A stretch of DNA of 64,000 nt from Nostoc sp. FACHB-152 (GTDB lineage Bacteria; Cyanobacteriota; Cyanobacteriia; Cyanobacteriales; Nostocaceae): NCBI RefSeq assembly GCF_014697475.1, contig NZ_JACJRV010000020.1, positions 1 to 64,000 on the forward strand. Reading direction: 5' to 3'. The position numbers were made by a program, and so were the translations under genes. Below the pieces are notes generated by a model. That model was given only the letters and a program-made list of their open reading frames with translations, searched no databases and was not told the origin of the DNA. Positions within the stretch are counted from its first letter, which is position 1; every line of letters begins with the position of its first letter. Shown here piece after piece: positions 12,484-39,959 of this stretch.

Positions 12484-13278
12484 TTAAGACCAGAAAATAA
12501 TTTCACCGTTAGGAAGTAAGCCAATCATGGAAGTGAAAGCTACACGTTGTCCGTGCATTGGCTCAACATAGTGGAAGTTGCTGGTATTGAACAGCAATAC
12601 ATCGCCTACATAAGGTTGGAAAGCGATCGCATCGTTATCTTCAAGGACTGCATCGCTGTATCCGTAGGAATCGAGTTTATATTGCTCATCTTCTGGTGTC
12701 CAACGGCGATCGTAAATGCAGGTTTTACCATGATTGTTATCAGACAATTTCAAGTACAAAGTCCAGGAAAGTTGAGTGGTAATTGTGCAAACTTCCCAGC
12801 CAGATTGCTCTAATGGGGCAAAATCAATATGTATTTGTGTACCATTTTCAATTTTTCTGATCAACCCTGCATAATAGCTACCGTATTCTGCTTCCGAAGC
12901 AATTCGCACCTTCGCGCCACACTCTCTAAATTTCTCCATGATGCGCTCCAAGGGATTGAAAGAAGCTGCAAAAATAGTGTCTCTTAATTTAGATGCTCTT
13001 TCTACTCCTTGAAAATAATTTGCTTTACTGACGCTGTTGTATTCAAATACTGTGATGCCAACTTTTTCAATTTTAGGAGTGACATCTTCATAAGCATTAA
13101 AGTTAAGCAATTGAGATTGAGCATATAACTTCTCACACTCTTCAGGTGTAGCAAAGTCTTTAAGCCGAATCAGAGGAATGCGGTGTTCAATCAGCTTTCT
13201 TAAAAATTCTGCTGTTAAGGGATACTCTTGGTTTTTTTCCCATCCTGTCGATTTAATTTGGTTAGATGCAGCAGTCAT
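12484..13278 (-). CDS. 2-oxoglutarate/Fe(II) oxygenase, leucine 5-hydroxylase (LdoA) type
   Basis: A 264-residue non-haem iron oxygenase. HxD is in HIDFAPLEQ (about residue 150), the distal His in NTSNFHYVEP (about 235), and GQRVAFTS follows with the probable 2-oxoglutarate-binding Arg. LdoA of Nostoc punctiforme hydroxylates free L-leucine at C5, giving the substrate for NosE. The adjacency to NosE and NosF, and the lack of any other obvious first step, make this the best candidate for that reaction. It begins 31 bp after the end of the NRPS gene at 13310. It is one of two paralogues in the cluster; the other is at 7310. Confidence 0.8.
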   Translation of the reverse strand: MTAASNQIKSTGWEKNQEYPLTAEFLRKLIEHRIPLIRLKDFATPEECEKLYAQSQLLNFNAYEDVTPKIEKVGITVFEYNSVSKANYFQGVERASKLRDTIFAASFNPLERIMEKFRECGAKVRIASEAEYGSYYAGLIRKIENGTQIHIDFAPLEQSGWEVCTITTQLSWTLYLKLSDNNHGKTCIYDRRWTPEDEQYKLDSYGYSDAVLEDNDAIAFQPYVGDVLLFNTSNFHYVEPMHGQRVAFTSMIGLLPNGEIIFWS

Positions 13279-13309: not shown

Positions 13310-16300
13310 TCAATTCCTACTAATATTTAGCAACGCTATGTTTGCTTGTGCTTGCTGAATGCAAATTTTCAAGCGTTTAGTTAAAACCTGAACGTGTGGT
13401 TCAGCCATCATCGTGACATGATTTCCTGGAACAAAATGGACATCTACTGGTTCGCTAGAATACTCCTCCCATCCCATAGCTGAATTCTGGGAAATATCAG
13501 AGAACTTACTATTAAAATGTTCTGGAGGAGTTTCGCTGGCACGTAAAAGGGTAATTTGTCCAGGATAGGTATGTTGTGGAACATAGTTAATCAGAGATAA
13601 AGAGTTTGCTTTTAAAGCTTGCACAATGTTTTTTAACTGTGTAATTTCCGCATTAGGAGGCAACATATTCACCGTTTTGAAATGCTGTAAAACTTGCTTT
13701 AGTTGTTCTTCTACAGATAGCGATCGCAGGGTATCGTAAGAAATATTTATATTCGTAGATAGGGAAACTTCTACTGCTTTGATCGCCTCAATCAACCACC
13801 TAGCATGATCCCAATCAAGACGCTCAATTCGTGTTTGTTTGTCTTTAGAGGTTGGTGCAGGCATATCAATCATGGCAAGTAGCGCAACTTGATGTCCTTG
13901 ATGAATCAGCTGAGTCGCCATTTCAAAAGCTACGATACTTCCTAAAGAATGCCCTCCCAAAAAGTATGGCCCTTGCGGCTGAACAGTCTGCATTACTTGA
14001 ATATAATGACTAGCCATCTCCTTAATTCGGTTGGCTGGCTCTAATCCATCTAGATTGTTGGCTTGAAAACTGTATAAAGGTTGGTCTTCTCCTAAATAAC
14101 GCCCTAAATGATAGAAGTAGAAAGGCTCACCACCAGCACCGGGAAGACAGAAGAAAGGTAACTTGGAACCATTTGGTTGAATGGGAACTAGACAAGATGA
14201 ATTTGCATCATCCAAGTCTATTTGCAAAATTGTTGCTAACTGTTCAATTGTGGGATTTTGAAAGAGGCTGGTTAAATTTACATTTTTACCAAACTGCTGC
14301 TGAATTTGAGCCATTAAGTAAGGTGCTAACAGCGAATGACCGCCAAGGTCAAAAAAGTTGTCTTGTACTCCTACCTTGTCAACTTTGAGAATTTTTGACC
14401 AAATTTGCACTAATTGCAGTTCTAATTGGTTACGGGGTTCAACAAATGTATCTAAATTATTAACGTTAGCAGGTGTGGGTAAAGCGCGGCGGTCTATTTT
14501 ACCGTTGGGTGTTAATGGCAACTTATCTAAGAAGACAAAACTAGAAGGAACCATGTACTGTGGCAACTTCGTAGAGAGAAAACGGCGGATTTCACGGATG
14601 ATGGGCGTTGATGCTTGAGTGGGAATGATGTAAGCCATTAAGCATTCTTCAGGTGCAGTTACGATAGTCTGATGCACAGATGGATGTTGTGCTAATACTG
14701 CCTCAATTTCTCCAAGTTCGATGCGTACACCGCGAATCTTGACTTGATGATCTTGCCGACCGAGAATTTCAAGAGTGCCATCTGGAAGATAGCGACCGCG
14801 ATCGCCTGTATAATACAGCAAATCTCCAGCATCATTGCGAAAATAGTTAGTGACAAAGCGAGAGCGCATTTCTTGGGCGGCGTTAATGTAGCCCAAACTG
14901 CGAAATGGAGTCCGTAAAACAATCTCGCCCGGTTCCCCAATACCGCATAGTTGATGATTTGCACCCAAAACTAAAGCTTGTGTTTCTGGAAGTGTTTGTC
15001 CGACTAGTTGCACCCCTGGTCTGGGTTCGCTGGGTACTTGGTAATAACACTTTGCCAAAGTTGTCTCTGTCGGCCCATATAGATTAACTATTTCACCTGC
15101 TTGGGGAAAAACATCTCGCCATTGCAGTACAAGCGTCTCTTTTAGAGGTTCTCCGGCTAAGAATAACCAGCGTAAGTTATGCAGAGAAACATCCGAGGGG
15201 ACACTAGCTAACCATGATTGCGCTAAGGAAGGAACTGTATGGAGGACAGAAATTTGTTGACGTTCTAAGTAACGTAAAATTTTCGTTGGTTCTAACTTAT
15301 CTTCTGGGGCTGGCAGACATAAGGTTGCACCACTAGTCAAGGGCAAGAAGATATCTCTGAGGACGACATCAAAGGAAAGTCCTGTTAATTGGGCAATGCG
15401 GTCTTGTTGATTAATTCCAAAGGTTTGTCTTTGCCAGCTAATAAAATGTGCTAACCCTTTATGACACCCCAACACACCTTTAGGAACGCCAGTAGTGCCA
15501 GAAGTAAAGAAAATATAGGCTGCATCATCCGCAGAGATTTCTGGTAGGGGTGTTATATGACTGCTTTCTAAAGAATTTACGGCTAATCCTGTATCTGAAT
15601 TTACATATATAACAGTTAACGACTGCCATATTTTCTGGTCTTCTTGGTGCTGATTGTCAATGTAGAGTAAGTATTTAGCTTGTGCTTGTTGAAGCATTAG
15701 CTGTTGACGTTCATGGGGAAGTTGCGGATCGAGAGTCAGTAATACTCCGCCACTCAACAGAACAGCGATCGCACTGGCAATCAAGCCAAAACTAGGAGTT
15801 CCGTACAAGGCTACGACATCACCCTTTGTGATACCGTGACTCAGCATCACCCTAGCTAAAGCTTGAGATTTATTGCCTAATTCACCATAGTTCCAAGTGC
15901 GATCGCCTTGACGCACTGCTGAGAGTTCTGGGTTGCTATTTACCCAATCGGTAAAGGTTGTTGTGACTAATTCGTATTCTGGTTGTGGTATAGGTTTTGT
16001 AGGATCTGGCAGTAAAAATCGGGCTTGTGGAGTAACTAGAGAATAAAAAGCGATCGCTCTATCAGGCTCGACAACAATTTGATTCAGCAAATGGTGGTAT
16101 TGTTGCAACATTTCCACCATTCGTTCTGAAGTAAATAGGTCAGCATTGTAGAGTAATTGCAGAATTGTGCCTTGTTCTTGTTCTGCAACATACAAGCTTA
16201 AGTCAAACTTAGAAGCCGCTTCTGAAACCAATATAGGTTCTACAGACAGCCCAAAAAGTTCTAGTTCGTTTTGTGCCAAATTCTGTACATTAAACCATAC

Positions 16301-19300
16301 CTGAAAAATTGGGTTATGGCTGAGATTGCGTTCTGGCTGTAATGCTTCCACCAACATTTCAAAAGGCAAATCTTGATGAGCATAAGCACCCAAAGCTACT
16401 TCTTGCACCCGTGATAATAACTCCCTAAAACTAGGATTTCCATCCAAGCGGGTACGCAACACCAGGGTATTGATGAAAAAGCCAATTAGTGATTCAATTT
16501 CTGCACGGTTGCGGTTAGCGATCGGTGTACCTATGCAAATATCATCCTGCCCACTATAACGCCATAGCAATATTTGGAATGCTGCTAACAGCGTCATAAA
16601 CAAGGTAACACTTTCTTTTTGACTCAATTGTTTGAGGGCAGTACTTAACTCTTTCGAGATTACCAACTCTTGATACGCCCCGTGGTAAGTTTGCACAGCC
16701 CCTCTAGGGCGGTCAGTGGGTAGCGATAATAAAGTGGGTGCGTCTTTTAGTTGTTGTTGCCAGTACGAGTGTTGATTTTGCAGCACATCCCCTTGCAACC
16801 ACTGTCGCTGCCAAATTGCGAAATCTGCATACTGGATTGGCAGTGGTGCTAATGGTGACAGACGACCTTGAGCATAAGCATTGTATAAAGCTGCTAATTC
16901 TTGAATAAACACACCCATTGACCAACCATCAGAGACAATGTGATGTATAAACACTAACAAAGCCTGTTCTGTCTGGGACAGTACAACTAACGTTGCTCTA
17001 ACTAATGGTTCATCCGCCAAGTTAAAAGGTTGTTGTGCTTGTGTTTGCACTAATTGTTGCAAAGCAATTTCTTTTTCGGTTGTAGGTAGATTTTGCAAGT
17101 CAACAATTGATACAATCCCCTGCTCCCTGCTCCCTGCTCCCTGCTTCCTAATAACTTGAATTGGTTGCCCATCAACGCTAATGAAATTGGTGCGTAATAC
17201 TTCGTGGCGATGAATAATTTCTTGTAAGCTTTGTTGTAGCGCAGCTTGATTTAGATTTCCCACTAGACGCAAAGTTAGGGGCATATTATATGTGCCACCC
17301 AAAGACTGTAACTGGTCTAAAAACCACAAACGTTGTTGAGCATAAGACAGTGGTATTTCTGCATTCTTTGCCCGCCTTAATATGGGTGGTGTAGAAAGTT
17401 CTAATTCCTGTTGCTGCAATTGCTCAATAAAATGTCCTAATTCCGCAACTGTAGCTCTAGCAAACAACTCACGCAATGGTATTTCCACTTTGAAAATGTT
17501 GCGGATACGTGAAAGCAATTGGGTTGCTAGTAGCGAGTGTCCGCCCAGTTCAAAGAAATTATCATGTATGCCTACTTGCTCCACTTTCAGAACTTGCGCC
17601 CAAATATGTGCCAGCATTTCTTCAAGTGGGTGACGTGGGGCTACATATTTGTCTATTCGTTCGCTGTGTAAATCTGGTGCGGGTAAAGCGCGACGGTCTA
17701 TTTTTCCGTTGGGAGTTAGGGGCAGAGAATCCAATATTACAATAGCCGGAGGAACCATGTACTCTGGAAACTTTGCCTTGAGAAATTGGCGTAGTTCGCC
17801 TATTGTAAGTTGGCAGTTCTGATGCGCTACTACGTAGCCAACTAGGCATTTATCACCCCTGTTATCTTCACGGGCGATAACACAAGATGTTTGCACACAC
17901 TCATGTTGGTTTAGTGCTGCTTCAATTTCGCCTAACTCGATACGGAAGCCCCGAATTTTAACTTGGTTGTCAATACGTCCCAGGTATTCAATATTCCCAT
18001 CAGGTAAATAGCGTGCTAAGTCTCCTGTTTTGTACAATTTTGAATTGTCAAAAGGGTTAGGAATGAATCTTTCCTGCGTTAGTTCAGGACGGTTGAGGTA
18101 GCCTCTGGCTAACCCGACTCCACCGATGTGCAACTCCCCTGGCACGCCTACAGGTACTGGTTGTAAATTTTTGTCTAAGATGTAAACTTGGGTATTGGCG
18201 ATCGCTTTGCCAATAGTTATTTTCTCTTCATCATGACATTTGGCGATTGTTGCACACACACTCGCTTCTGTCGGCCCGTAAGCGTTGAAGAAGTTTCGAC
18301 CCACAGACCATTGCTTGATTAATTCCGCCGGACAAGCTTCTCCGGCGACAATGATTGTTTGCAGTGCTGGCAGTTCCTCTTGTGGCATCACTGCTAGAGC
18401 CGATGGTGGTAGGGTAATATGCGTAATCGCATCATCTCGTAATCGCTCAATCAACGTCTGTCCTGGCAATAGCGAGTCTTTTGTTCCCAAGTAAAGCGTT
18501 CCACCTGACATCAATGCCATGACAACTTCCCAAATAGACGCATCAAAACTGAAGGAAGCAAACTGGAGAACGTGACTATTCTTAGTCAAGCCAAAAGTTT
18601 GAATCTGAGCTTGAGCTAAGTTGCATAATCCTTTATGCTCAACCATCACACCTTTCGGTCTACCTGTTGAGCCTGAAGTGTAAATCACATTCGCTAGATG
18701 AGAGGCTTTTACCTCATTGTTTGGATTATCTTGATTGTGTTGGGCGATTTGTGACCAAATTTCATTTAAACAAATAAGTTTGGCTTGATGTTTGGGAAGT
18801 CTTTCAATCAGGTTTTGTTGAGTCAGCAGCACTGAAACTTGAGCATCTTCTAGCATGAAAGCCAAACGCTCAGATGGATAGTCTGGGTCTAGTGGCAAAT
18901 ATGCCCCACCCGCTTTGAGAATCCCCAACAGCCCAACAATCATCTCTAAAGAACGTTCGACACAAATACCCACCAGCGTATCTGGTTTTACATTCAATAA
19001 GCGCAAGTAATGAGCTAAAGAGTTAGCACGACAATTCAATTGGTGGTAGGTGAGTTGTTGATTGCCAAACACAACCGCCACAGCATCCGGTGTGCGCTCA
19101 ACCTGTTCCTCAAATAATTGATGGATACATTTATCTTCAGGGTAGTCCATCCATGTATGATTCCAATCAACTAATAACTGTTGTTGTTCAACTGCTGTCA
19201 GCAGGGGTAATTGGGAAATTCGCTCTTGAGGATTGGCGACAATTGCTTTAAGTAATGTGACAAAATGCCCACTCATGCGCGCGATAGTGCCTGCATCAAA

Positions 19301-20725: not shown

Positions 20726-20734
20726 AGAAAAATT

Positions 20735-20740
20735 ACCTCC
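20735..20740 (-). promoter_or_regulatory. Strong ribosome binding site of the terminal NRPS
   Basis: The plus-strand acctcc reads ggaggt in gene direction, 9 nt before a GTG at 20725. It falls inside the reading frame that starts at a GTG at 20746, so it decides for the shorter start. Confidence 0.7.
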
Positions 20741-21303
20741 AATCACCTAATTATTTATTCCTAATCAAGTTTTTTTTACTATTTATAATTGCAATTTATT
20801 ATCTTTATTGCCTGTAAGTTCAAAATTTGTTTTTTACTAATTATTTACTCTAATTTTTACTTATTGGTTTGCTTATTTAAGTTATCAGTAGAGAGATGAT
20901 CCCATTTTTATCAATAAAATGCAATGCCAGTTAAGACAGTTAAGACAGCAGGAAAGAGGACAGTTAAGACAGTTAAGACAGTTAAGAATAGACCTTTTGC
21001 AAAAGTCCATGTTTTAATCTCTTTCTCTGCGCCTTTGCGACGGCCTACCCTTCGGGAAGCCGTGCAGAGCGCGTCTACAAGTCAGGGAAACCGCCCAACG
21101 CTCTACCTCGCCTCTGCGTGAGACAAAAAAATAGTTATGCAAGAGGTCTAATGTATTTATATTCCAATACGGTTCAGTTAAGGTTTCGTTCCCCCCTCCT
21201 AAAACCCCTCAAAAATGAATTTAGGGGGATATTCAATGTCTGCTGTTCTAAGTTCTACGCTTAAACTACTCAATCACTTGGTACAAGATAGAAGTTATTG
21301 CAT
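20741..21303. other. Repeat-rich gap between PKS and terminal NRPS
   Basis: The only large gap (about 560 bp) between the three megasynthase genes. It holds a 20885-20987 block with CAGTTAAGA repeats, also present upstream of the large NRPS. Then comes a GC-rich palindromic repeat of a kind common in Nostoc (about 21025-21120, with ccttcggg and gcgcgtctac pieces). A third piece, cccccctcctaaaac / tttaggggg at about 21192-21230, can fold back. No gene is seen. The NRPS may therefore have its own promoter here. Confidence 0.6.
20885..20987. repeat. Tandem CAGTTAAGA block upstream of the terminal NRPS
   Basis: Two 9-bp cagttaaga units (20928-20945), a short spacer, then three more (20961-20987). 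They are preceded by tcagtagagagatgatc and aaaatgcaatgc. The whole block resembles 40275-40385 upstream of the large NRPS. In gene direction the units read TCTTAACTG and lie about 200-260 bp before the start at 20725. Confidence 0.8.
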
Positions 21304-24300
21304 TTAAATTGCGATTTCTTCTCTCTCATTCGTACTTAAGTGAGAATTTAATTGAATTTGTTCTTGTAGCTTGGATGCAACTTCCACTATTGTGGGATAT
21401 TCAAACAAACTAGCAACAGTTAATTTAATAGAAAAAATATTTCGCAATCGAGATAGAACTTGTACAGCGATTAAAGAATCTCCTCCTAATTCAAAAAAGT
21501 TATCATGGATGCCTACTTCTTTTACTCCTAATAATTCTTGCCAAATCTCAGCAATTTTTTGCTCAATTGCGTCACGAGGGGCTACATAAGAATTGGGTAA
21601 ATTAGGTCTTGAATAGTTTGCTGATAATTTTTCTGACTCAAAAGTATCTGACTTTGTTTGTAAGACATTTTCTGATTTCTTCTGCCCGGATTTTACACTA
21701 AACGCAGCTGATGCAGAAGCAACTGCCATAATAATTTGATGTTCAATTGTTTCCGTTTCAGGAAAAGCAGCAACTTGCACAAAATCTTGCTCTCTTAATG
21801 CTTCAAACCACTGGTCTAGAATAATAAAAGGCTGACCAGGGCTGCGTCTTTTATCATCTAATGGTTTTAAAAGTAGACCCCAGCTAATATCAAAGTCAAT
21901 TTTCGCCTGAGTTATTTCCCACACTAAAAGGAAGCCGCCAGGAGCTAATAAAGAGCGTACATGATGAAGTGTTTTATCTATATTACGAGTGGCGTGTAAA
22001 ACATTAGTGGCGATGATGACATCAAAGCTGTACTTTTCAAACCCTTGCTCGGTTGGCGATTTGTCTATGTCTAGTAAGCGATATTCAACAAATGGATAGT
22101 CTTTAAATTTCTCTTGCGCTTGAGTTAAGAAGCCGCTACCAATATCAGTAAAAGTATAGCTGGTTCTTTGTGGTGGCAACACAGGTAATATAGCTTGTGT
22201 AGTGACACCAGTACCCGCACCGATTTCCAAAACTCTCAGCTGAACAGATGACGGTAATGATTTGATTAGCTGTTCCAAACTGGAGCGCACAATAGAGTTG
22301 TAGTAAGTAATTATGGATGATTCTGAATATGATGGTTTGTTTTCTTTTTGGTAAACTAGTTTATTAAAAATCTCTAATGGTTCTTGTTCACCAGTAACAA
22401 TAGCCGCTAAATTTTCCCCACAGCGTTGGATTAAATCTAAATCTACTAAAGAAGAATTAGCGAACCTTGTTCTGACTTGTTTTAAATGTTCGTTAATGTA
22501 ATCTTGTGAACATGATACTAGTCCAGTAAATAATCCTTCTTGTTGCTGTAGTTGTTTTTGCTCAATTAATATCTGCAACCATCTAGAAAACAATTGTTGG
22601 TAGCGGGGAGAAATATTGTATTTATCTAATAAATTTTCTAAAGAATACTTGTCTTGAGAATTACTAAAAGCCCCTAATTTTTGGAATGCAGAGTTAATGT
22701 AAGCTGTACATAAATTATCTAGCCACTGTCTATTTTCTTGATAAGTTAATTCGTCAAGTTCTGCATTTCTAATGCTTGCTTGCTTTTGACCTGCTTGTTT
22801 AAGCAGTGTCCACAATTTTGATGTTGTGGGTATTTGCGAATCTTCCCAAGCTGTTTTTTGTGGCGGGTCAATCCAATAACGTTGGCGCTCAAAGGGGTAA
22901 GTTGGTAAAGGAATATGATAATACTCATCCTGACTATAAAATCCCAACCAATCTACTTTCACCCCAGCCAACCAAAGTTGACCAAATGTGTTGAATAAAA
23001 CATGAATATCAGATTGCTTTTCTTGAGGATGACGTACTGAAGTTAATACAATTTGTGCGGCTGCTTTGTTTTGATGTCTTTTAACTAATGTAGCTAGTGT
23101 ATGTCCTGGCCCTACTTCTAATAAGACTTGCTCTGGCTTTGCTAATAATTTCTCTATACCGGAGGCAAACAGCACTGTAGAACGTAGATGTTGAGCGTAG
23201 TAGTCAGGATTAGTGGCTTGTGTAGTTGTAATCCAAGTACCAGTTAAGTTGGAAATATAAGGCAGTTTTGGCGGATTTAAAGTAACTTTTTTAACTTGCT
23301 CTGTAAATGCCTCTAAGATGGGTTCCATCATCAGCGAATGGAAGGCATGGGAAGTATGCAGACGGCGACATTCAATGCCTTGAGCAGCAAGCTGATTTTG
23401 TAGTGCATCTATCGCTGCTATGGAACCGGAAACTACGCATTGCGATCGCTGATTAATCGCAGCAACAGAAAGTTCTTTACCTAATAGGGATTGTACCTTG
23501 TCTGCGGGTAAGGGAACAGAAAGCATTGCTCCAGTGGGTAGTTGCTGCATCAGTTGTCCGCGTGCTGCTACCAAAGATAAAGCATCTTCTAAAGAGAAAA
23601 CTTCTGCGAGAGTTGCGGCTACATACTCGCCTATACTATGACCGATCGCAGCTTGTGCTTCTACTCCCCAAGACTGCCATAATTTAGCTAGGGCATATTC
23701 AATTACAAAAATAGCAGGTTGGGCAATTCCTGTTTGTTGAAGTTGCTTTGACGCTTCATCAATCTTTTCATCGCTGGTGTAAAGAATATGACGTAAATCT
23801 AGCCCTAGTAAGGGTTTCAAAAATTCTGAACAATAATCAACTTGTTCTTTAAATACTTCCTCAGTCTCATAAATTTCCCGCGCCATGTTGACATACTGAG
23901 AACCTTGACCGGGAAACATAAAGACAACAGGCCGTTCTGTAATCTCTGTATAGTTGGAAAATACCTGTTTTGACTCTAGACCTTTGACAGCATCTTCTAA
24001 ATCACGACAAACTAACATCCGTCGATAATTAAAGCCCCGGCGACCACTGTTGAGTGTATAAGCCACATCGCCTAAATTAAGTTCTGGATGCTCTTTTAAA
24101 TGCGTGATTAAATTAGCTGTCGCTTTCTCCAACGCACTCGCAGTCTTAGCCGACAGACATAAAAGTTGATAATCTCTCCCCTGCTCCCCTGCTCCCCTGC
24201 TCCCCTGCTCCAACACAGGAGTTTCTTCCAAAATGACATGAGCATTCGTCCCCCCCATCCCAAAGGAACTAACACCAGCACGGCGAGGAGTGTTATCTGT

Positions 24301-31500: not shown

Positions 31501-34500
31501 CTTTGCAATACATCTTCTACCAACCACTGTCTTTGCCAAATAGCGAAGTCTGCGTATTGAATTGGCAATGGTGCTAAAGGTGACGACTGACCTATTGAGT
31601 AAGCGTTGTAAAGTGTTGCTAGTTCGGAGATAAACACACCCATTGACCAGCCATCAGCGACTATGTGGTGCATACAGACAAACAAGATATTTTCTGTGTC
31701 GGATAGCACTACTAATTTGGCTCTGACTAATGCTTCTTTTGCTAGGTCAAAGGGTTGGCTAAATTGTAATTGTCCTATTTGCTGTACAGCTATTTCTTGT
31801 TCATTTGCAGATAAGTGCTTTAAGTCAACAACGGAAACTACTTCCTGTTCACTATTCCCTATTCCCCTAATAACTTGAATTGGTTGTCCATCAATTGTGA
31901 TGAAGTTGGTGCGTAACGCTTCGTGGCGTGCAATGATTTCTTGTAGGCTTTGCTCTAAGGCGGTAAGTTCCAGTTTTCCTGTTAAACGCAACGCTATGGG
32001 TATGTTGTAGAAAGGGCTGTCTGGCTCGAATTGGTCTAAAAACCATAAACGCTGTTGAGCATAAGACAATTGTAAGTCTGCATTCTCTACCCGCCTTAAG
32101 ATAGGTGCTGTAGAAAGTTCTAAGTCCTGTTGCTTTAATTGCCCAATTACTTGCGCCAATTGGGCAACTGTAGCTGCGGCAAACAACTCACGCAATAGTA
32201 TTTCCACCTTGAAAATGTTGCGGATGCGTGAAACTAGTTGGGTGGCGAGTAGCGAGTGTCCCCCTAGTTCAAAGAAGTTATCATGAATACCTACTTGCTC
32301 TACTTTCAATACTTGCGCCCAAATTTGCGCCAGCATTTCTTCAGTAGGTGTACGCGGGGCAACATATTTTTCTAACAGTGTGCTGTCTAATTCTGGTTTT
32401 GGCAGGGCGCGACGGTCTATTTTGCCGTTAGAGGTGAGGGGTAAGGATTCTAGCAGCACAAAAGCACTTGGGATCATGTACTCTGGTAGCTTGTCCTTGA
32501 GAAACTGACGCACCTCTGCGACTGTAGGAGATTGTTCTAGCTGCGGCACTACATAAGCTACTAAACGTTTATGGCCCGGTTCATCTTCTCGGACTATCAC
32601 CACGCTTTCCCACACCGCCGGATGAGAAGCCAGTAATGCCTCAATTTCTCCCAACTCAATGCGGAAGCCACGTATTTTTACTTGGTTATCGATGCGTCCT
32701 AAATACTCTAATTCGCCATTGGGTAAATACCGCCCTAAATCACCAGTTTTGTATAATTTATTTCCTTCTGCCTCCTGCCTCTCCGCAGTCTCTACAACGG
32801 GGGGAAGCCCCGCAACGCGCTGCTCTCTGCCTTCTGCCTTCTCAAAAGGATGAGAGATAAACCGTTGTTGGGTCAACTCGTGACGATTCAAATAACCATG
32901 CGCCACCCCAGCACCACCAACGTACATTTCGCCAGGAACGCCAATAGGCACTGGCTGTAAATATTCATCTAGTACATATACTTGTAAGTCGGGTATGGGG
33001 CGACCAATTACACTGGCCGTGCTTTGCAAATCGGCTTTGCTCAATGGGCGATAGGTAACGTGTACGGTGGTTTCTGTAATCCCGTACATATTCACTAACT
33101 GGGGTGAGGTGTCGCCGTGTCTATCAAACCAAGGTTGCAAGCTCTTTAGTTCCAGTGCTTCTCCACCGAAGATTACTAGGCGTAAGTTCAAGTCAGAAGC
33201 AGGGGGAAATGTAATTGACTGTTCTGCTTGAATTAACTGGCGGAAGGCTGAAGGTGTTTGATTAAGGACTGTGACTTTTTCTTGACACAATAACTTATAG
33301 AATAATTCAGGCGATCGCGTCACTAAATAAGGCACTACTATTAGTTTTCCACCATACAGCAATGCACCCCAAATTTCCCACACAGAAAAGTCAAAAGCAT
33401 AAGAGTGGAACATTGTCCACACATCTTGAGAGTTAAAGTTATACCAAGCATTTGTCGCTGCAAATAAACGAGTTACATTAGCGTGATTAACTAAAACACC
33501 TTTAGGCTTACCTGTAGAACCAGAAGTGTAGATAACATAAGCTAAATTATCTGGTGTTGTAGTGTTTTCTGGATTTTTGTTGCTATGTTGCGCTATGGTT
33601 GAGCGATCGCTATCTATACAAACAAGTTGTGCGCTATGCTCTGGTAGTTTGTTGAGTAATTCTTGTTGTGTGAGTAGCACAGAAACCTGAGCATCTTCTA
33701 TCATGAAGCTCAAGCGGTCTTGAGGATACCCACTGTCAAGTGTGACGTAAGCACCACCCGCTTTGAGTATAGCCAATAGTCCGACAATCATATCGAGCGA
33801 ACGCTCTACACAAATACCTACCAGCACATCTGGCTCTACACCCAAGGAACGCAAATAGTGTGCTAACTGGTTAGCGCGACGATTTAATTGTTCGTAGGTA
33901 AGTTGATTGTCTTCGTACACTACCGCTACTGCATCAGGGGTGCGTTCAACCTTCTCTTCAAACAACTGATGCAGGCACTTTTGAAGTGAATAGTCTACTG
34001 TTGTATCGTTCCACTCTACTAATAACTGCTGTTGCTCAGGTTGCGTCAGCATTGGCAATTGTAAAATCCGTTCTTCTGGGTGAGCAACAATTCCCTCAAT
34101 TAATGTTTGGAAATGTCCTAATAAACGAGTAATTGTGTCATCATCAAATCGGCTAGTCTCGTAGCTAATCTTGACAAACAGTTGCTCACCAGGAACAACC
34201 ACTACCGTCAGAGGATAATTAGTTTGTTCAATGGCGTGAATATTGTCTATAGAGAAACTGTAATTTTCCTGTTGCGCTGCCTCATCAATAGGATAATTCT
34301 CGAAGACAACAATGCTCTCAAACAAAGACATTCCTCTAGGCACATCACTCAGACCTTGAATCTCTGCCAGTGAGCTATATGAATATTGTTCAGATTCAAC
34401 TTGCTGTGCTTGTAAATTCTTCAACAAATCTATTACTTGAGTCTCACCAGAAACTTGAACGCGTACTGGCAAAGTGTTGATAAATAATCCTACCATTGAC

Positions 34501-37500
34501 TCAATGCCAGCAAGCTCAGGTGGACGACCAGACACAGTAACACCAAACACTACATCAGTTTCTTGACTGTAGCGACACAAAAGTAATGACCAAGTGGCTT
34601 GTACTAGACTATTTAGTGTCAACTGATGCTGTCGCACAAATGTTTGTATGGCAGATGTCGTTTTTCTTGTCAGGTGGATTTGTTGTTTACTGTAGCGAGA
34701 ATTTAACGGTTTACGGTTTGACGATGGCTGATCAACACTTAAAGGAGTGGGTAGATTAAAACCTTGAAGTTTCTGCCGCCAGAATTGCCGAGCTAGGTCT
34801 TGATCTTGTTTTTGTAGCCAAGCAATATAGTTGCTGTAGCTGGTAGTTGGTTTAATAGCTAAATTTTTACCCTGAGAAATTGCTTGATAAAAGGACAGCA
34901 GGTCTTGAAAAATCAAACGTCCTGACCAACCATCAAGCAATAAGTGATGAGAACTCCAAATAAATTGATAAGTATCTGCACTTAGTTGAATGAGAACCAA
35001 GTATATCAGTGGTGCAATAGACAAATAGAAACCCTGTTGTCGCTGTGACTGCAACAAAAGCTCTAATTTTTTTTGCTGCTCTTGTGCAGATAGCTCTCGC
35101 CAATCATAGCTTTGTAGGTTAACGTTTACCTGCCGATACACTACTTGAAGTGGCTGTTGCTCATTCTCCCAAACAAACGCAGTTCGCAAGACAGAATGCC
35201 GTGCTATCACTTGCTGCCAAGCTTGCTCAAATACTGATACATTTAAATTTCCACTCAAAGCATAACTACACTGCTCAAAATACACTCCTGAGTCTGGAGC
35301 ATACAAACTTTCAAACAGCATTCCCTGTTGCATCGGGGAGAGTGGGTAAATATCTTCAATATTTCGCCAGTTAGTTTTGCCTAAACTTGCCAACAGTTGG
35401 TCTAGTTCTAACTGGTTGAGCTTGATTAATGGGAAATCTGTTGGTGTATAACCGCCATTCTCAGGAGATGAACAATGAGCAATAAGTTTCTGCAATGTCT
35501 CGATAAATTCTTGCGCCAAACTTTCAATTGTGGTGCGCTGATGAAAATTACTGCTGTAAGTCCACTCTATTTGTAGACGTTCTCCCGTAATAATGCTATT
35601 AATCTCTAGCAGATGAGTGCGGTTATTTTGCCAACCGTGCATTTTTCCCGCAGACTCACTGGCTGGCTGCATCCAAGAATTTGTATTAAGCAGTTGAGCG
35701 AATTGACCCAAATAATTAAAACTGATTTGAGCTTGCGGTAATGCCTGTAGTTGATTCGCAATTTTTGTATCTTGGCTTAGATAGCGCAATAATCCATAGC
35801 CAATTCCTTTATTGGGAATAGCCCGTAATTGTTCTTTGACAGATTTTAAAGCATCTGCTGGATTGTCTGTAGCTGGGAGTTCAATAAGCACAGGGAAGAT
35901 GGTCGTAAACCAACCGATGGTACGTGATAAATCCACACCATCAACAATATTTTCCCGCCCATGACCTTCTAAGTTGAACAGCACACTCTGAGAGTGAGTC
36001 CATCTGCTCAAAACTAACACCAAGGCAGTCAGTAGTACATCGTTAATCTGAGTGTTGTAAGCTTTTGGTACATCTTGCAGCAAAGCAAGAGTTTCCGCCT
36101 CACTTAAAGACAATAATACTGTACTAGCTGCTGCAACAGTGTTTGCCCCTTTTATATAGTCAACAGGTAGAGATGGAACTGCGGCGCGAGATTCATCCAA
36201 CCAGTAAGCCGCTTCTGATTTGAAGGCTTGTGATTGTGCATATTCGGTTAATTTAAAAGACCAATCTTTGAAAGACGTTGTTTTAGCAGGAAAGGTAATA
36301 GCTTTACCTAGAGCAAGTTGCTGGTAAGCTGTTTGCAAATCCTCTAATAAAATCCGCCAAGACACACCATCAATTGCTAAATGATGGACAACGATCAGTA
36401 ATCGTGCCTTTTTGTCAATACCCAGATGGAAAAAGGCAATCTGTACTAGATTTTCTGACAGATTTAGTCTCGCCTGCAACAAATTACCTTGAGCTTCAAT
36501 GGCTGCTTGTTGTTCAGTTTCGGGAATTGCTGATAAGTCTATGTAAGAGAAAGCAACGCTATGATTCGGCGCAGAGTAAATCTGCTGCCAAGTAGAGTCA
36601 GACTGTGTAAAACGTAAGCGCAGAGCATCGTGATGTACTAGCAATTGCTTGAATACTTGCTGCAATAGCTCCGGCTTGAGGTCAGATGGTACTGAGAGTA
36701 GAAATGCTTGATTAAAGTGGTGCGGCTGGGAGAGGTTTTGCTCAAAGAACCAATGTTGAATGGGGGTTAAAGGTAATGTACCTGTGACTAATTCTTGTTC
36801 TGCCTCAATTTTATTGATTGTGTCTACTACTGTTGCCAATTGGGCAATTGTTGGATGTGCAAATAATTGCTTGAGGGTAAGTTGCAATCCAGCAAGCTTG
36901 GCTCTGCTAATGATTTGAATACTGAGGATTGAATCACCGCCCAGTTCAAAAAAGTTATCGTGAATACCTACACTCTCTACTCGTAGAACTTCTGACCATA
37001 TTAGTGCTAGTATTTCTTCGATTTGATTGCGTGGTGCTACAAAACTGACTTGGAGTTCTCCACGGGAATCCGGCACTGGTAGAGCATTGCGGTCTATCTT
37101 GCCGTTAGGAGTTAGTGGCAGTGATTCCAGCATGACAAACGTATGTGGCACCATATAATTAGGCAGTCGGCTAGACAGGAAAGAGCGCAACTGGTTAACC
37201 GTCGGTATCTGCCCTAGATGCGTTACTACGTAGGCGACTAGGCGTTTATCACCAGGATTGTCTTCACGGACAATTACACAACAAGCCTGCACTTCCTCAT
37301 ATTGGCTTAATCTTGCTTCAATTTCTGCCAATTCAATGCGGAAACCCCGTATTTTAACTTGGTTGTCAATTCGTCCCAAGTATTCAATATTACCATCTGG
37401 TAAATAACGCGCCAAATCTCCAGTTTTATAGAGGCGACCAGTGCCGAAGGGGCTGTTGATAAATCTTTCCTGCGTAAGTTCTCTTCGATTGAGGTAGCCT

Positions 37501-39959
37501 CTTGCCAGCCCAACACCCCCAATGTGCAACTCCCCTGGCACACCTACAGGTACTGGTTGTAAATTTTTGTCTAAGATGTACACTTGGGTATTGGCGATCG
37601 CCTTACCAATCGATATTTTCTCATCTTCCGGGGTGCATTTGGCGATCGTTGCACAAACACTCGCTTCTGTCGGCCCGTAAGCGTTGAATAAGTTTCGACC
37701 CACAGACCATTGCTTGATTAATTCCGCCGGACAAGCTTCTCCGGCGACAATGATTGTTTGCAGTGCTGGCAGTTCCTCTTGTGGCATCACTGCTAACGCC
37801 GATGGTGGTAATGTGATATGCGTAATCGCATCATCTCGTAATCGTTCAATCAACGGCTTTCCTGGCAATAGCGAGTCTTTTGTTCCCAGATATAGCGTTG
37901 CACCTGAGCCAAAAGCCATGACGACTTCCCAAATCGAAGCGTCAAAACTGAAGGAGGCAAATTGAAGAACGCGACTATCTGAAGTCAAACCAAAAGTTTG
38001 AATTTGAGCTTGAGCTAAGTTACACAGTCCTTGATGCTCAACCATCACACCTTTAGGTGTTCCTGTAGAACCAGAGGTATAAATCACATAAGCCAGATTA
38101 GTTGCTTGTACATCAGTGTTCAGATTATCTTGGCTTGACTTATCTATCGCCTGCCATTGAGTATCTAAACAGAGGACTGTCGCTTGATGCTGTGGTAGTC
38201 TATCACTTAGATGCTGTTGAGTAAGTAGCACTGAAACTTGAGCATCTTCTAACATAAAGCTCAGACGCTCTTGAGGATACTCAGGGTCAAGTGGTACATA
38301 AGCCCCACCCGCCTTGAGAATTGCTAACAGTCCAATGACCATTAGGAGACCGCGCTCTACACATAACCCAACTAGTACCTTTGCTCCTACACCCAAGGAG
38401 TATAAGTAGTGTGCTAACCCATTAGCACGGCAATTTAACTCGTAGTAAGTCAGTTGTTGATTACCAAACACCACCGCCACAGCATTGGGTGTTTTCTCAA
38501 CCTGCTCCTCAAATAATTGATGAATACATTTATCAGAGGGATAGTCTACCTGGGTATTGTTCCACTCAACTAATAACTGCTGTTGCTCAATTTTTGTCAG
38601 CAGAGGTAATTGCCAAATTTGCGCCTCTGGGTTGACAACAATACCTTCTAGCAAGGTCACAAAATGCCCTGCCATGCGCCTGATTGTCGCTGCATCAAAA
38701 AGGTCAGTATTGTACTGCCAGCATGGCTCTAAAATCCCCTGAGCTTCTCGCACCATTAAACTCAGGTCTAACTGTGCGCCCCTTTGCCCAAGCAAATATG
38801 GCTCCATTTCCAGCACTAGTTCTTGACTGTGCAAAGAATTGTCTGTTCGTTCACACCAAGTTTGTGCTTGCCAAGTGAAACTAACTTGACACAAAGGATG
38901 ACGACTTGGGTCTCTTTGTGGCTGGATTTGTTCTGCTAACAGAGAAAATGGGTAATCTTGATGCTTTTGGGCTTGTCTAACTGTTTTGCTGACTTGAGCA
39001 AGAAGTTCATGAAATGTGGCATCTTCTTGTAGAGAAACCCGTAAAACAGTCAGATTGGAAAAGTAGCCGACCATCTCTTTAAACTCTTTACCCGGCCGAC
39101 CTCTCATGGGGCTGCCTATAAGGATATCTGTTTGATTGGTGTAACGGTAAAGTTGGATGTAAAATGCTGTGAGCAGAATTTGATAAAGACTGGTTCCAGA
39201 AACGAAAGCTAGATTTTTGAGTTTTTTAGTTAACTGTTCATCTAGCTTTAAAATATGTGATACTCCTTGATAAGTCTGTACTGGGGGGCGGGGTTTATCT
39301 GGGAGCAAGTTCAAAATTGGTAATTCGCCAGCTAATTGTTTTTGCCAGTATTGTCGCTGTTTTTCTCCCCTGGAACTCGATAACATTTCTAATTGCCAGC
39401 GAACAAAATCTGCATAAGTTTTATTCTTACTTAAAGAATCTGCTGTTACCTGGGTTTGCTTTTGATTAGCTTGCTCAATTTCTTGAGCATACAAAGTTTG
39501 AAATTCACTCAGCAGTAAATCATAAGACCACATATCCCCAGCAATGTGGTGCATTGTTAACACAAGAACGTGTTCTTGCGCTGAACGCGTAAATAAATTC
39601 ACCCTGAGAACTGAATCTTTTTCTAAATTAAAAGGTCGGTCAGATGTAGCATAAATTTTCTCTTTTAATTCGTCTTCACTCCAAATGCTGGCATCTATTA
39701 CTTCAACATTAATTTTTTGCTGTTGATTAACTTGCTGAACAGGTTTGTCTTCATAACTAGTATATGTGGTTCTAAGAATAGGATGGTTTTGAATAATTTT
39801 TTTCCATACACACTCAACAATATAAATATTTAAATAAGAATTAATTTTTACAGTAATGAAAATATTATAAGCAATGCTTTCAGGAGCAATTTGGTAGATA
39901 AACCACATTGCTTCTTGTCCAGATGAGAGTGGAAAATTTGTTTTGTTAATTGTGTTCAT
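25539..39959 (-). CDS. Four-module NRPS (C-A-PCP-E, then three C-A-PCP)
   Basis: 4806 residues. Module 1: C (HHIAGDMWS about 136), A (FDASIWE about 671), PCP (LGGDSI about 1007), E (HHLAIDG about 1193, EGHGRE about 1333). Module 2: DCL-type C (LSPMQQGML; HHLLLDGWS about 1672), A (FDFSVWE about 2190), PCP about 2567. Module 3: C (HHIVADGWS about 2766), A (FDVSFQE about 3286), PCP about 3658. Module 4: C (HHIVFDGWS about 3853), A (FDASISE about 4372), PCP about 4721, then a basic tail. Pocket residues by eye: A1 D-A-W-T-I-A-A-V-C (Phe-like); A2 D-F-W-N-I-G-M-V-H (the classical Thr code); A3 D-V-Q-F-I-S-Q-L-A (proline-like, 4-MePro candidate); A4 D-A-S-T-V-A-A-V-C (Tyr-like). A leading C domain suggests N-acylation of the first residue, which the E domain converts to D. 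Repeat-derived insertions lie in A2, A3 and A4. An aaggt site precedes the ATG. Confidence 0.95.
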   Translation of the reverse strand: MNTINKTNFPLSSGQEAMWFIYQIAPESIAYNIFITVKINSYLNIYIVECVWKKIIQNHPILRTTYTSYEDKPVQQVNQQQKINVEVIDASIWSEDELKEKIYATSDRPFNLEKDSVLRVNLFTRSAQEHVLVLTMHHIAGDMWSYDLLLSEFQTLYAQEIEQANQKQTQVTADSLSKNKTYADFVRWQLEMLSSSRGEKQRQYWQKQLAGELPILNLLPDKPRPPVQTYQGVSHILKLDEQLTKKLKNLAFVSGTSLYQILLTAFYIQLYRYTNQTDILIGSPMRGRPGKEFKEMVGYFSNLTVLRVSLQEDATFHELLAQVSKTVRQAQKHQDYPFSLLAEQIQPQRDPSRHPLCQVSFTWQAQTWCERTDNSLHSQELVLEMEPYLLGQRGAQLDLSLMVREAQGILEPCWQYNTDLFDAATIRRMAGHFVTLLEGIVVNPEAQIWQLPLLTKIEQQQLLVEWNNTQVDYPSDKCIHQLFEEQVEKTPNAVAVVFGNQQLTYYELNCRANGLAHYLYSLGVGAKVLVGLCVERGLLMVIGLLAILKAGGAYVPLDPEYPQERLSFMLEDAQVSVLLTQQHLSDRLPQHQATVLCLDTQWQAIDKSSQDNLNTDVQATNLAYVIYTSGSTGTPKGVMVEHQGLCNLAQAQIQTFGLTSDSRVLQFASFSFDASIWEVVMAFGSGATLYLGTKDSLLPGKPLIERLRDDAITHITLPPSALAVMPQEELPALQTIIVAGEACPAELIKQWSVGRNLFNAYGPTEASVCATIAKCTPEDEKISIGKAIANTQVYILDKNLQPVPVGVPGELHIGGVGLARGYLNRRELTQERFINSPFGTGRLYKTGDLARYLPDGNIEYLGRIDNQVKIRGFRIELAEIEARLSQYEEVQACCVIVREDNPGDKRLVAYVVTHLGQIPTVNQLRSFLSSRLPNYMVPHTFVMLESLPLTPNGKIDRNALPVPDSRGELQVSFVAPRNQIEEILALIWSEVLRVESVGIHDNFFELGGDSILSIQIISRAKLAGLQLTLKQLFAHPTIAQLATVVDTINKIEAEQELVTGTLPLTPIQHWFFEQNLSQPHHFNQAFLLSVPSDLKPELLQQVFKQLLVHHDALRLRFTQSDSTWQQIYSAPNHSVAFSYIDLSAIPETEQQAAIEAQGNLLQARLNLSENLVQIAFFHLGIDKKARLLIVVHHLAIDGVSWRILLEDLQTAYQQLALGKAITFPAKTTSFKDWSFKLTEYAQSQAFKSEAAYWLDESRAAVPSLPVDYIKGANTVAAASTVLLSLSEAETLALLQDVPKAYNTQINDVLLTALVLVLSRWTHSQSVLFNLEGHGRENIVDGVDLSRTIGWFTTIFPVLIELPATDNPADALKSVKEQLRAIPNKGIGYGLLRYLSQDTKIANQLQALPQAQISFNYLGQFAQLLNTNSWMQPASESAGKMHGWQNNRTHLLEINSIITGERLQIEWTYSSNFHQRTTIESLAQEFIETLQKLIAHCSSPENGGYTPTDFPLIKLNQLELDQLLASLGKTNWRNIEDIYPLSPMQQGMLFESLYAPDSGVYFEQCSYALSGNLNVSVFEQAWQQVIARHSVLRTAFVWENEQQPLQVVYRQVNVNLQSYDWRELSAQEQQKKLELLLQSQRQQGFYLSIAPLIYLVLIQLSADTYQFIWSSHHLLLDGWSGRLIFQDLLSFYQAISQGKNLAIKPTTSYSNYIAWLQKQDQDLARQFWRQKLQGFNLPTPLSVDQPSSNRKPLNSRYSKQQIHLTRKTTSAIQTFVRQHQLTLNSLVQATWSLLLCRYSQETDVVFGVTVSGRPPELAGIESMVGLFINTLPVRVQVSGETQVIDLLKNLQAQQVESEQYSYSSLAEIQGLSDVPRGMSLFESIVVFENYPIDEAAQQENYSFSIDNIHAIEQTNYPLTVVVVPGEQLFVKISYETSRFDDDTITRLLGHFQTLIEGIVAHPEERILQLPMLTQPEQQQLLVEWNDTTVDYSLQKCLHQLFEEKVERTPDAVAVVYEDNQLTYEQLNRRANQLAHYLRSLGVEPDVLVGICVERSLDMIVGLLAILKAGGAYVTLDSGYPQDRLSFMIEDAQVSVLLTQQELLNKLPEHSAQLVCIDSDRSTIAQHSNKNPENTTTPDNLAYVIYTSGSTGKPKGVLVNHANVTRLFAATNAWYNFNSQDVWTMFHSYAFDFSVWEIWGALLYGGKLIVVPYLVTRSPELFYKLLCQEKVTVLNQTPSAFRQLIQAEQSITFPPASDLNLRLVIFGGEALELKSLQPWFDRHGDTSPQLVNMYGITETTVHVTYRPLSKADLQSTASVIGRPIPDLQVYVLDEYLQPVPIGVPGEMYVGGAGVAHGYLNRHELTQQRFISHPFEKAEGREQRVAGLPPVVETAERQEAEGNKLYKTGDLGRYLPNGELEYLGRIDNQVKIRGFRIELGEIEALLASHPAVWESVVIVREDEPGHKRLVAYVVPQLEQSPTVAEVRQFLKDKLPEYMIPSAFVLLESLPLTSNGKIDRRALPKPELDSTLLEKYVAPRTPTEEMLAQIWAQVLKVEQVGIHDNFFELGGHSLLATQLVSRIRNIFKVEILLRELFAAATVAQLAQVIGQLKQQDLELSTAPILRRVENADLQLSYAQQRLWFLDQFEPDSPFYNIPIALRLTGKLELTALEQSLQEIIARHEALRTNFITIDGQPIQVIRGIGNSEQEVVSVVDLKHLSANEQEIAVQQIGQLQFSQPFDLAKEALVRAKLVVLSDTENILFVCMHHIVADGWSMGVFISELATLYNAYSIGQSSPLAPLPIQYADFAIWQRQWLVEDVLQSQLSYWEQQLKDAPALLSLPTDRPRPSVQTYNGTHQEFALSGELTNKLAKLSQEQGVTLFMTLLAAFDTLLYRYTGQEDILVGSPIANRDRSEIEGLIGFFVNTLVMRTDLAGNPTFSELLSRVRDMAMSAYSHQHLPFEMLVEALQPERDLSYTPLFQVMFVLQNAPTSGLELTGLNVSSFLIKGTTSRFDLTLIMQNSPTGLVGVWEYNTDLFDASTIDRMTSHFVTLLEGIIANPEQRISQLPLLTAVEQQQLLIDWNDTAVDYPLYKSIHQLFEEQVELTPDAVAVEFGNQQLTYSQLNCRANQLAHYLQSVGVKPDTLVGLCVERSLEMVIGLLGILKAGAAYVPLDPEYPSDRLSFILEDTQVKVLLTQQRLIDRLPPNQAKLVCLDTDAEKISQCSPDNIISGVQPNNLVYIIYTSGSTGQPKGIAMSQLALCNHILWHRDNLKITRAKTLQFASVSFDVSFQEIFTTWCSGGTLFLITEELRRDALALLGFLQEKQIQRMFLPVVGLQQLAEVALGNDIVNTGLREIITSGEQLQITPAISGWLSKLTDITLHNQYGPSESHLATSYTLPDFIDTWPLLPSIGRPISNTQIYILDKYLQPVPVGVLGEVYIAGVLLAQGYFNRPQLTQEKFIPNPFEKAEGREQRVAGVPPVVATAERQEAGGNRLYKTGDLARYLPDGKLESLGRIDNQVKIRGFRIELGEVEAVLGQLSDIQASCAVVREDIPGDKRLVAYIVPQPEQTISISEVRNFLKEKLPEYMVPSAIVILEALPLSANRKLDRRALPAPDLHNQLSDQYVAPRNPIEEIVSVIWAQVLKVERVGIHDNFFELGGHSLLATQLVSRVRTSLTVELPLRSLFAAPTVAELSQHIQQLQQHDLTTSAILPRTRDADLPLSYAQQRLWFLDKLNPNSPFYNLLVALRLDGTLNQTALQQSLQEIINRHEALRTNFITVNGEPVQVIKEQGTVSVPIVDLQHLSITEKEITLQQLAQQQAHQPFNLADESLIRTTLVVLSETEQALFLFIHHIVFDGWSMGVFVQELEALYNAYSQDKMSPLTPLPIQYADFAIWQRQWLQGDVLQSQLNYWEQQLKDAPALLSLPTDRPRPPVQTFAGAYQQFLLSDGLTDRLTKLSQEQGVTLFMTLLAAYNTLLYRYTGQEDILVGTPIANRDRSEIEGLIGFFVNTLVIRSNLAGNPTFSELLTRVREVALGAYSHQNLPFEMLVEALQPERNLSHTPLFQVLFNLQNAPLQELELAGLTVSSLPVESRTTKVDLGLSMENTTQGLLGVWEYNTDLFDASTIARMTGHFVTLLEGIVTNPQERIYQLPLLTTVEQQQLLVDWNHTWVDYPEDKCIHQLFEEQVERTPDAVALVFDNEQLTYHQLNCRANGLAHHLRSLSVKPDTLVGICVERSIDMVVGLLGILKAGGAYLPLDPEYPPERLSFMLEDAQVSLLLTQQRLIDRLPKHQAKLICLDEVWSEIAQHNQDNPNSGVRAFHLANVIYTSGSTGRPKGVMVEHKGLCNLAQAQIQTFGLTKNSHVLQFASFSFDASISEILMALGSGATLYLGTKDSLLPGKPLIERLRDDAITHITLPPSALAVMPQEELPALQTIVVAGEACPTELIKQWSVGRNFFNAYGPTEASVCATIAKCTPEDEKITIGRAIANTQVFILDSNLQPVPIGVPGELHIGGVGLARGYLNRTELTQEKFIPNPFRRSRGAGEQGSREENFFNSERLYKTGDLARYLPDGNIEYLGRIDNQVKIRGFRIELAEIESLLGQHSDVQNCCVIAHEGTPGNKRLVAYVVPQKDVTLTTEELRQFLANKLPGYMVPAAFVILESLPLTPNGKVDRRALPNPDLHQESLDYVMPNTEIESIIADIWQQVLALENVGIYNNFFELGGHSLILVKVNQQLQEKLGLELSIVDMFNYPTIHSLSKYLWTKSQKEETIKENNYRTQTQSEIKAVRKQQLKSRQQHRSQKKGVK
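26313..26342. repeat. In-frame ctgctccc repeat inside A domain 4
   Basis: Tandem cccctgct octamers encode RSRGAGEQGSRE just before the YKTGD motif of the fourth A domain. The other Phe-like A domains have only a short loop at this place. Confidence 0.8.
29489..29572. repeat. Dispersed repeat inserted in frame in A domain 3
   Basis: A stretch with cctcctgcctctccgcagtc, a ggggg-aa-ccccc palindrome, gcaacgcgctgc and tctgccttctgccttctc encodes about 26 extra residues (KAEGREQRVAG...ERQEAGGN) before YKTGD. An almost identical stretch is in A domain 2 at 32764-32849. It looks like a mobile or proliferating repeat captured in coding sequence. Confidence 0.85.
32764..32849. repeat. Dispersed repeat inserted in frame in A domain 2
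   Basis: Nearly identical to 29489-29572, with a few substitutions (VPPVVA becomes LPPVVE). It encodes KAEGREQRVAG...ERQEAEGN at the same loop before YKTGD. Confidence 0.85.

Follow-up and report, generated by a model that had tools for sequence, protein, structure and literature searches.

A probable minutumamide/nostopeptolide-type assembly line with an added epimerising first module, and a linked AlaX-like gene, in Nostoc sp. FACHB-152

What peptide would be made by the large synthetase genes at positions 13310-39959 of a stretch of Nostoc sp. FACHB-152 DNA, and does it belong to a known family? The stretch, called the window here, comprises 64,000 nt (contig NZ_JACJRV010000020.1, positions 1-64,000). 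An earlier reading of the bare letters (the sequence-only reading) had placed three megasynthases there, in an order that it did not recognise and judged to be unlike that of the nostopeptolides. Our analysis indicated that the locus is very probably a minutumamide/nostopeptolide-type line of the order nonribosomal peptide synthetase (NRPS)-polyketide synthase (PKS)-NRPS with an added epimerising first module. The product predicted from it is most likely a new congener, a short acyl-D-Phe-[Thr-Hmp-(Tyr/Phe-derived 2-methyl-3-oxo unit)-Phe-Asp] lactone, in which Hmp is 3-hydroxy-4-methylproline. Domains, codes, motifs, gene order and relatives were read from the sequence, and substrates, ring closure, acyl chain length and the roles of the two oxygenases, ox1 and ox2, were deduced from them.

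The three megasynthases were confirmed as three open reading frames (ORFs) of the minus strand with identical coordinates. They and four of their domains are as follows (C, condensation; A, adenylation; T, carrier; E, epimerase; TE, thioesterase).

25539..39959, minus strand: N1, tetramodular NRPS of 4806 aa, Cstarter-A1-T-E-C2-A2-T-C3-A3-T-C4-A4-T; nosA/minB-like with an extra first module
38571..39941, minus strand: C1, starter-type condensation domain (motif HHIAGDMWS; C-domain tree)
35457..36782, minus strand: epimerase domain, predicted to make the first residue D (motifs, tree)
34020..35357, minus strand: C2, placed in the tree among C domains preceded by an E domain
21304..25542, minus strand: PKS of 1412 aa, KS-AT-cMT-ACP, nosB/minC-like; predicted malonyl extension and C-methylation with the beta-keto group kept
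13310..20746, minus strand: N2, NRPS of 2478 aa, TubC dock-C5-A5-T-C6-A6-T-TE; minD-like
13376..14155, minus strand: thioesterase domain (TE motif), predicted to perform macrolactonisation onto Thr

Five condensation-type, four AMP-binding and four carrier stretches were found in N1 with Pfam. The second condensation-type domain carries the motifs HHLAIDGVSWR, EGHGRE and FNYLG, which we take to be those of an epimerase, and it is assigned as one by these motifs. The PKS shows the KS motifs QTACSTS, EAHGTATPLGD and KTNFGH, the AT motifs GHSIG and HAFH, and the methyltransferase motif VLEIGAGTG; a domain search of its ORF gave no KR, DH or ER match. N2 contains the TubC dock, two C, two A and two T domains, and a TE with the motif GGHSLG. 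The module order, the epimerase, the C-methylation without reduction and the TE release proposed in the sequence-only reading are thus upheld by Pfam domains and motifs. A broken or silent line that yields no product is very unlikely: frames are split in some relatives (G205; the PKS of G151), but all three ORFs of the window are open over their full length and their motifs are present.

Homologues were then counted over 217 genomes of the family Nostocaceae (G, C and L numbers denote genomes, contigs and loci). Near full-length relatives of the PKS occur at 92% (G005) and at 79-85% (G056, G070, G013 and G044), the named ones being mostly Nostoc. The gene order N1-PKS-N2-ox2-nosE-nosF-nosG-ox1-alaX is repeated in G005, G271, G150 (Komarekiella HA4396-MV6) and G151 (Nostoc, Peltigera cyanobiont 210A), in some of which N1 or the PKS is divided into more ORFs, and after module 1 the module order of the window is that of these four. 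In the window, the genes that follow the megasynthases up to ox1 are these.

12484..13278, minus strand: ox2, 2-oxoglutarate (2OG)-Fe(II) oxygenase, predicted leucine 5-hydroxylase in the role of LdoA (family, neighbourhood)
11303..12409, minus strand: nosE homologue, zinc dehydrogenase in the 4-methylproline pathway (family, order)
10446..11267, minus strand: nosF homologue, pyrroline-5-carboxylate reductase family (family, order)
8335..10344, minus strand: nosG homologue, ABC transporter (family, order)
7310..8089, minus strand: ox1, 2OG-Fe(II) oxygenase, predicted 4-methylproline 3-hydroxylase (HID followed by a further H, by visual inspection)

By their order and family, we identify the zinc dehydrogenase, the reductase and the ABC transporter as homologues of nosE, nosF and nosG. 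In G005, a gene with AMP-binding, KR, ACP and KS matches (Pfam) and an AT (our own profile) lies upstream, and N1 is trimodular. According to PMC12184294, minutumamides are cyclic pentadepsipeptides with Thr-Hmp, Amopa and a phenylbutyryl side chain, and in the min cluster of Nostoc minutum NIES-26 and N. linckia NIES-25 a CAL/KR-type PKS lies upstream, and genes resembling nosA to nosG and a TE are present. The G005 cluster has the published minutumamide architecture. Nostopeptolide-type traits are likewise present at the sequence level in the window, namely adjacent nosE/F/G, a starter C domain, a hydroxy amino acid and a predicted in-ring ketide. The verdict that the order is unrecognised and unlike nostopeptolides therefore fell, since nosE/F/G homologues and the minutumamide core Thr-Hmp-(aryl-alanine + C-methyl ketide)-X-Y-TE are present. 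Two elements still match no compound that we found: the Tyr-like code of module 4 and the additional side chain, acyl-D-Phe.

To name the residues, adenylation codes were read by alignment to A1 of the window at positions anchored on GrsA numbering. The code table covers 27 regions, more distant loci being left out. The six A domains of the window, with approximate limits, are listed below.

37005..38567, minus strand: A1, Phe-type, code DAWTIAAVCK
32325..34007, minus strand: A2, Thr, code DFWNIGMVHK
29055..30707, minus strand: A3, predicted Hmp, code DVQFISQLAK
25860..27467, minus strand: A4, Tyr/Phe, code DASTVAAVCK
17612..19159, minus strand: A5, Phe, code DAWTIAAVCK
14411..15994, minus strand: A6, predicted Asp-type acidic residue, code DVRHFALLAK

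The three codes written out beforehand (Thr, proline-like and Tyr-like) agree with those re-read here. Two residues could be refined, the proline-like one to Hmp by way of the downstream tailoring genes at 7310-13278, and the last one, previously left unassigned, to an acidic, Asp-type residue. At the place of A4, G005, G271, G150 and G151 carry DAWTIAAVCK, as opposed to DASTVAAVCK in the window. The A6 code is common to the window and G005.

In the code of A6, positions 239 and 278 are Arg and His, as in codes for acidic residues of microcystin synthetases (McyB/McyE); literature searches for McyB/McyE-type code strings gave no match. When the parts named in PMC12184294 are subtracted from the formula of minutumamide A, C13H18N2O7 is left for the two residues after Amopa, and by arithmetic minutumamide C45H53N5O12 fits Pba-Thr-Hmp-Amopa plus either Tyr and Asp or Phe and hydroxy-Asp. 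On these codes and this arithmetic, the last residue is most likely Asp or hydroxy-Asp, linked via its alpha or its side-chain carboxyl. Gly was tried for A6 and rejected. Among solved structures, the second module of linear gramicidin synthetase, which we take to be Gly-specific, gave the best sequence match, but the ranking changed when the pocket region alone was used. Separately, a bimodular A-T-C-A-T-TE NRPS of 2012 aa with the codes DPWGTGCIDK and DVRHFALLAK was observed in the window's own genome (L124, G000:C46:45000-64999), and 41 of the listed A6-related matches sit in open frames of 1950-2021 aa, similar to it.

The A3 residue is most likely Hmp, as the tailoring genes and their distribution suggest. 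According to PMC5676206, LdoA hydroxylates leucine at C5, NosE oxidises the product, the ring closes spontaneously and a reductase yields 4-methylproline. Among the 217 genomes, nosE gave 37 matches in 36. All but one of the 37 have an ox2-like gene no more than 5 kb away, and in the exception, G203, ox2 is on another contig. A second proC-family gene was found above cut-off on contig C68 of the window's genome, so the nosF homologue of the cluster is likely to be dedicated to it. Genes of the ox1 class (78-100% identity) are present in 12 of the 217 genomes, two oxygenases of intermediate identity (46%; G259:C84 and G166:C368) being scored as neither ox1 nor ox2. All ten clusters with the code DVQFISQLAK that were scored have ox1 (the window, G005, G271, G195, G223, G248, G203, G205, G257 and G166:C27), three of them (G248, G257 and G166:C27) having been chosen because they carry it. 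G195 and G150 are evidently the same record, as are G223 and G151, and each was counted once. The remaining ox1 loci were unscorable: the G210 contig begins inside N2 with a partial ox1, and G042 has no NRPS in 40 kb.

Among 24 loci with other codes, in a comparison for which codes were read for 30 of the 51 listed A-domain matches, 11 have nosE within 60 kb and 10 of these lack ox1; the eleventh, G248, also holds a DVQFISQLAK domain in the same cluster. G009 and G040 also have another code, DVQFIAHAVK, with ox2 and nosE and without ox1. Fisher's test on 10/0/0/9 gave 1.1e-5, with related clusters treated as independent, three positives selected for ox1 and G070 excluded. The G070 contig ends 198 bp after nosG, and only the absence of ox1 from the whole assembly was counted for this genome. 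In G166:C351, ox2, nosE and nosF are present and no Pro-type A domain was seen in the stretch examined. The assignment of A3 to Hmp gains independent support from G203, whose module order fits nostopeptin, a peptide with Hmp at that place. Pro as the A3 substrate was rejected, since nosE and nosF are adjacent and ox1 accompanies the Ser301 code.

It is also conceivable that the product is a plain 4-methylproline peptide and that ox1 acts elsewhere, for example in Asp beta-hydroxylation or on another free amino acid. The Phe plus hydroxy-Asp solution of the minutumamide formula would agree with this, and ox1 was identified as a 2OG oxygenase by family only. Yet ox1 occurs with DVQFISQLAK and without DVRHFALLAK in the stretches read of G203, G205, G248, G257 and G166:C27; conversely, G070 has DVRHFALLAK and DVQFIAHLAK and no ox1-class gene in its assembly; and the published compounds contain Hmp, according to PMC12184294. 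We consider this alternative quite unlikely and retain Hmp.

Two further loci with these genes were observed. L178-L179 (G203:C1:380000-419999) holds a 7416-aa NRPS ORF and a C-A-T-TE ORF, a possible nostopeptin cluster. L185-L186 (G042:C1:4074000-4113999) carries an ox2-nosE-nosF-ox1 and AlaX cassette with no NRPS in the 40 kb scanned, where Hmp may serve another use or a distant line.

From these assignments a route can be proposed. The starter C domain would couple a short acyl-CoA to Phe, which the E domain would convert to D, and Thr and then Hmp would be added. Hmp would be derived from leucine through 5-hydroxylation by ox2, dehydrogenation by NosE with spontaneous ring closure, reduction by NosF and 3-hydroxylation by ox1. 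Tyr or Phe would come next and be extended by a malonyl unit that is C-methylated and keeps its ketone (an Amopa-type unit). Phe and the Asp-type residue would be last, the TE would close the lactone onto Thr, and NosG would export the product. With a hexanoyl chain as an example, the calculated [M+H]+ is 955.4448 for Tyr at module 4 (C50H62N6O13) and 939.4498 for Phe (C50H62N6O12). Further [M+H]+ values calculated for possible products are 927.4135 and 911.4185. That the Thr hydroxyl could serve for lactone closure had been suggested before, in agreement with the published relatives.

Several points weigh against this picture. The product is a prediction from genes; the window holds no recognisable gene for activating the acyl starter; Thr is named as the lactone site by analogy; and A4 could load Phe or Tyr. 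The case for Asp at A6 rests on likeness to McyB/McyE codes and on arithmetic with at least two solutions, and the equation of the G005 cluster with the min cluster rests on a match of architecture, not of name. The product may, moreover, be an already described compound (a nostopeptolide, nostoweipeptin or another depsipeptide) and so not new, the closest family having been published only in 2025 (PMC12184294). We regard this as unlikely: minutumamides, as described, carry a phenylbutyryl side chain on a cyclic pentadepsipeptide, and nostopeptolide KVJ3 is without the side-chain amino acid of A1. The residue order predicted here was not met in the literature searched, MIBiG and the supplement of PMC12184294 lying outside that search.

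The first module, which sets the window apart, appears to be a mosaic. N1 is colinear at 79% over aa 1-2050 with a 4216-aa ORF of G271 of the order C-A-T-E-C-A(Pro-type)-T-C-A-T. The A1 core (approximately 560-800) instead matches best the Phe cores of minutumamide-type lines (78-95%), and beyond about residue 2000, N1 proteins of minutumamide or nostopeptolide type predominate among the best matches. In a FastTree phylogeny of 84 C and E domains rooted on E, C1 groups with the first C domains of G248, G271 (the 4216-aa ORF), G203, G070 and G150, its neighbours being lines that start with an acyl group or have no upstream partner in the stretch examined. The window E domain groups with those of G009, G271, G005 and G040, and C2 with after-E C domains. 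The simplest reading of these data is two exchanges, in which a starter-to-C2 block would have been joined to a minutumamide-type line and the A core swapped.

The arrangement starter-C-A-T-E-C-A(Thr) was absent from 12, 8 and 6 other regions compared. A search with the T-E-C block over the family genomes gave foreign matches of at most 81%. For seven of the eight best (G271, G005, G009, G216, G217, G231 and G040; not G240) the neighbourhood was inspected, and none holds the same line. G070 and G150 have a separate first-module ORF at the place of module 1, with an A-domain insertion that is methyltransferase-sized (judged by size, not by profile). We call spumigin-like the synthetases that share the Cs/C-A-T-E-C block of module 1 (the G271 4216-aa ORF, G009, G040 and a 3706-aa ORF of G005). 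They differ from the window in that their next modules are Pro-type (DVQFIAH..) and DVE-type, and a KS was looked for in their ORFs without success. The G005 spumigin-like cluster (L075:14546-20000 and L093) has an AMP-binding-KR-ACP loading gene followed by C-A-T-E-C-A(Pro)-T. Its start lies some 0.6 kb beyond the AlaX gene that belongs to the minutumamide-type cluster, on the strand of the megasynthases, and this juxtaposition is a plausible setting for module exchange.

Beyond ox1 lies one further gene of the conserved order.

6342..7067, plus strand: AlaX-like free-standing tRNA-editing gene, start moved from 6264 by comparison; predicted self-protection

It matches Pfam tRNA-synt_2c and tRNA_SAD above cut-offs; against NCBIfam AlaXM it scores 108.1 bits, below the 300-bit cut-off, and we call it AlaX-like without assigning it to AlaXM. 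Its AlaRS-like editing domain has HxxxH and CxxxH, presumably the metal motifs, and both are kept in 12 of 12 homologues. The gene is found (E<=1e-20) in 12 of the 217 genomes, exactly the 12 with ox1, and is missing from 26 of the 36 nosE genomes; it thus tracks the hydroxylase and not the methylproline genes. It lies less than 600 bp from ox1 in 10 of the 12 and about 6 kb away in G042; in G257 each of the two sits at the end of its own contig. Among 386 genomes drawn from the phylum, three contain the gene, two being ox1 genomes already counted. The third is G565, which belongs to another family; its AlaX homologue is 40% identical, and the match begins 25 bp after a WelO5-family oxygenase match (L204:18379-19894). 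That oxygenase is 27% identical to ox1, the mechanical ORFs of the pair overlap by 44 bp, and no match to the NRPS/PKS profiles used was found in the 40 kb around them. The oxygenase-AlaX pairing therefore recurs at great distance without a peptide line.

PMC7595273 reports misincorporation of hydroxyproline in place of proline in antibodies produced by CHO cells, and according to PMC11295145, AlaXp takes Ser and Gly off tRNA-Ala and FthB clears fluorothreonyl-tRNA. The 3-hydroxyl of Hmp would resemble the beta-hydroxyl of Ser, a known AlaX substrate. We propose tentatively, at a little less than an even chance, that the AlaX-like protein is a dedicated self-protection device that would clear tRNA (most likely tRNA-Pro) mischarged with Hmp and so keep the toxic free analogue out of proteins. 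Two considerations tell against such proofreading: linked genes are inherited together, and we know of no AlaX action on proline analogues. Our literature searches found nothing joining alanyl-tRNA editing with biosynthetic gene clusters, or methylproline with alanyl-tRNA.

Other neighbours were considered as well. A methyltransferase gene at 5159-5758 was rejected as a cluster member, there being no match in the loci compared. The first gene upstream of N1, on the other strand (40770-41750, plus strand), encodes an MvdD-type ATP-grasp maturase (561 bits, above cut-off). This microviridin-type gene was rejected as part of the line for its opposite strand and its single match among the loci compared (L080, 35%); a fragmentary MvdD-type match near the G205 ox1 cassette speaks against that rejection. 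At 41985-44060 (plus strand) is a patatin-like phospholipase fused to a laminin-G-type domain, with a match to a CBASS lipase model below cut-off.

Taken together, the locus belongs to a known class of cluster and is new in its first module; its published relatives make it less surprising. An 'unknown' cluster becomes searchable masses and a specific predicted congener, and a short code (Ser at 301) and a candidate enzyme are offered for Hmp. Nostoc assembly lines were described in 2025 as products of mixing, and this line is a further case, with a whole epimerising starter module that resembles a spumigin-like line and a replaced A core. The AlaX link deserves specialist attention above all; if true, tRNA proofreading would be self-resistance to a non-protein amino acid produced for a peptide.

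Three published systems invite comparison. FthB (PMC11295145) is a trans-editing deacylase for tRNA carrying a non-protein amino acid, the function predicted for the window gene; FthB is ProXp-ST1-related, whereas the window gene is AlaX-like with a predicted substrate only. Nostopeptolides A1 and KVJ3 (PMC12184294, PMC6835634) share with the window the acyl starter, the NRPS-PKS-NRPS order and nosE/F/G. A1 resembles it further in having a residue before the lactone Ser/Thr; KVJ3 contains Hmp and Amopa and is without the side-chain amino acid of A1. The window differs in its predicted shorter ring, in which two residues follow the ketide, in D-Phe via an E domain and in an acidic last residue; the ring is 8-membered in A1 and 7-membered in KVJ3, and the module count of the window predicts one of minutumamide size. 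With the min cluster (PMC12184294) it has in common Thr, Hmp and aryl-Ala modules followed by KS-AT-MT-ACP with the C-methyl ketone kept, the bimodular TE-ending NRPS with a TubC-type dock, and nosE/F/G-type genes. The min cluster has minA, a CAL-type PKS for the 4-phenylbutyryl side chain, which the window lacks, our own profile finding no KS elsewhere in it. Finally, Thr is loaded by the first NRPS module and module 4 is Phe-type in the min cluster, whereas in the window C-A(Phe)-T-E precedes Thr, fused in one ORF, and the module 4 code is DASTVAAVCK, not DAWTIAAVCK.
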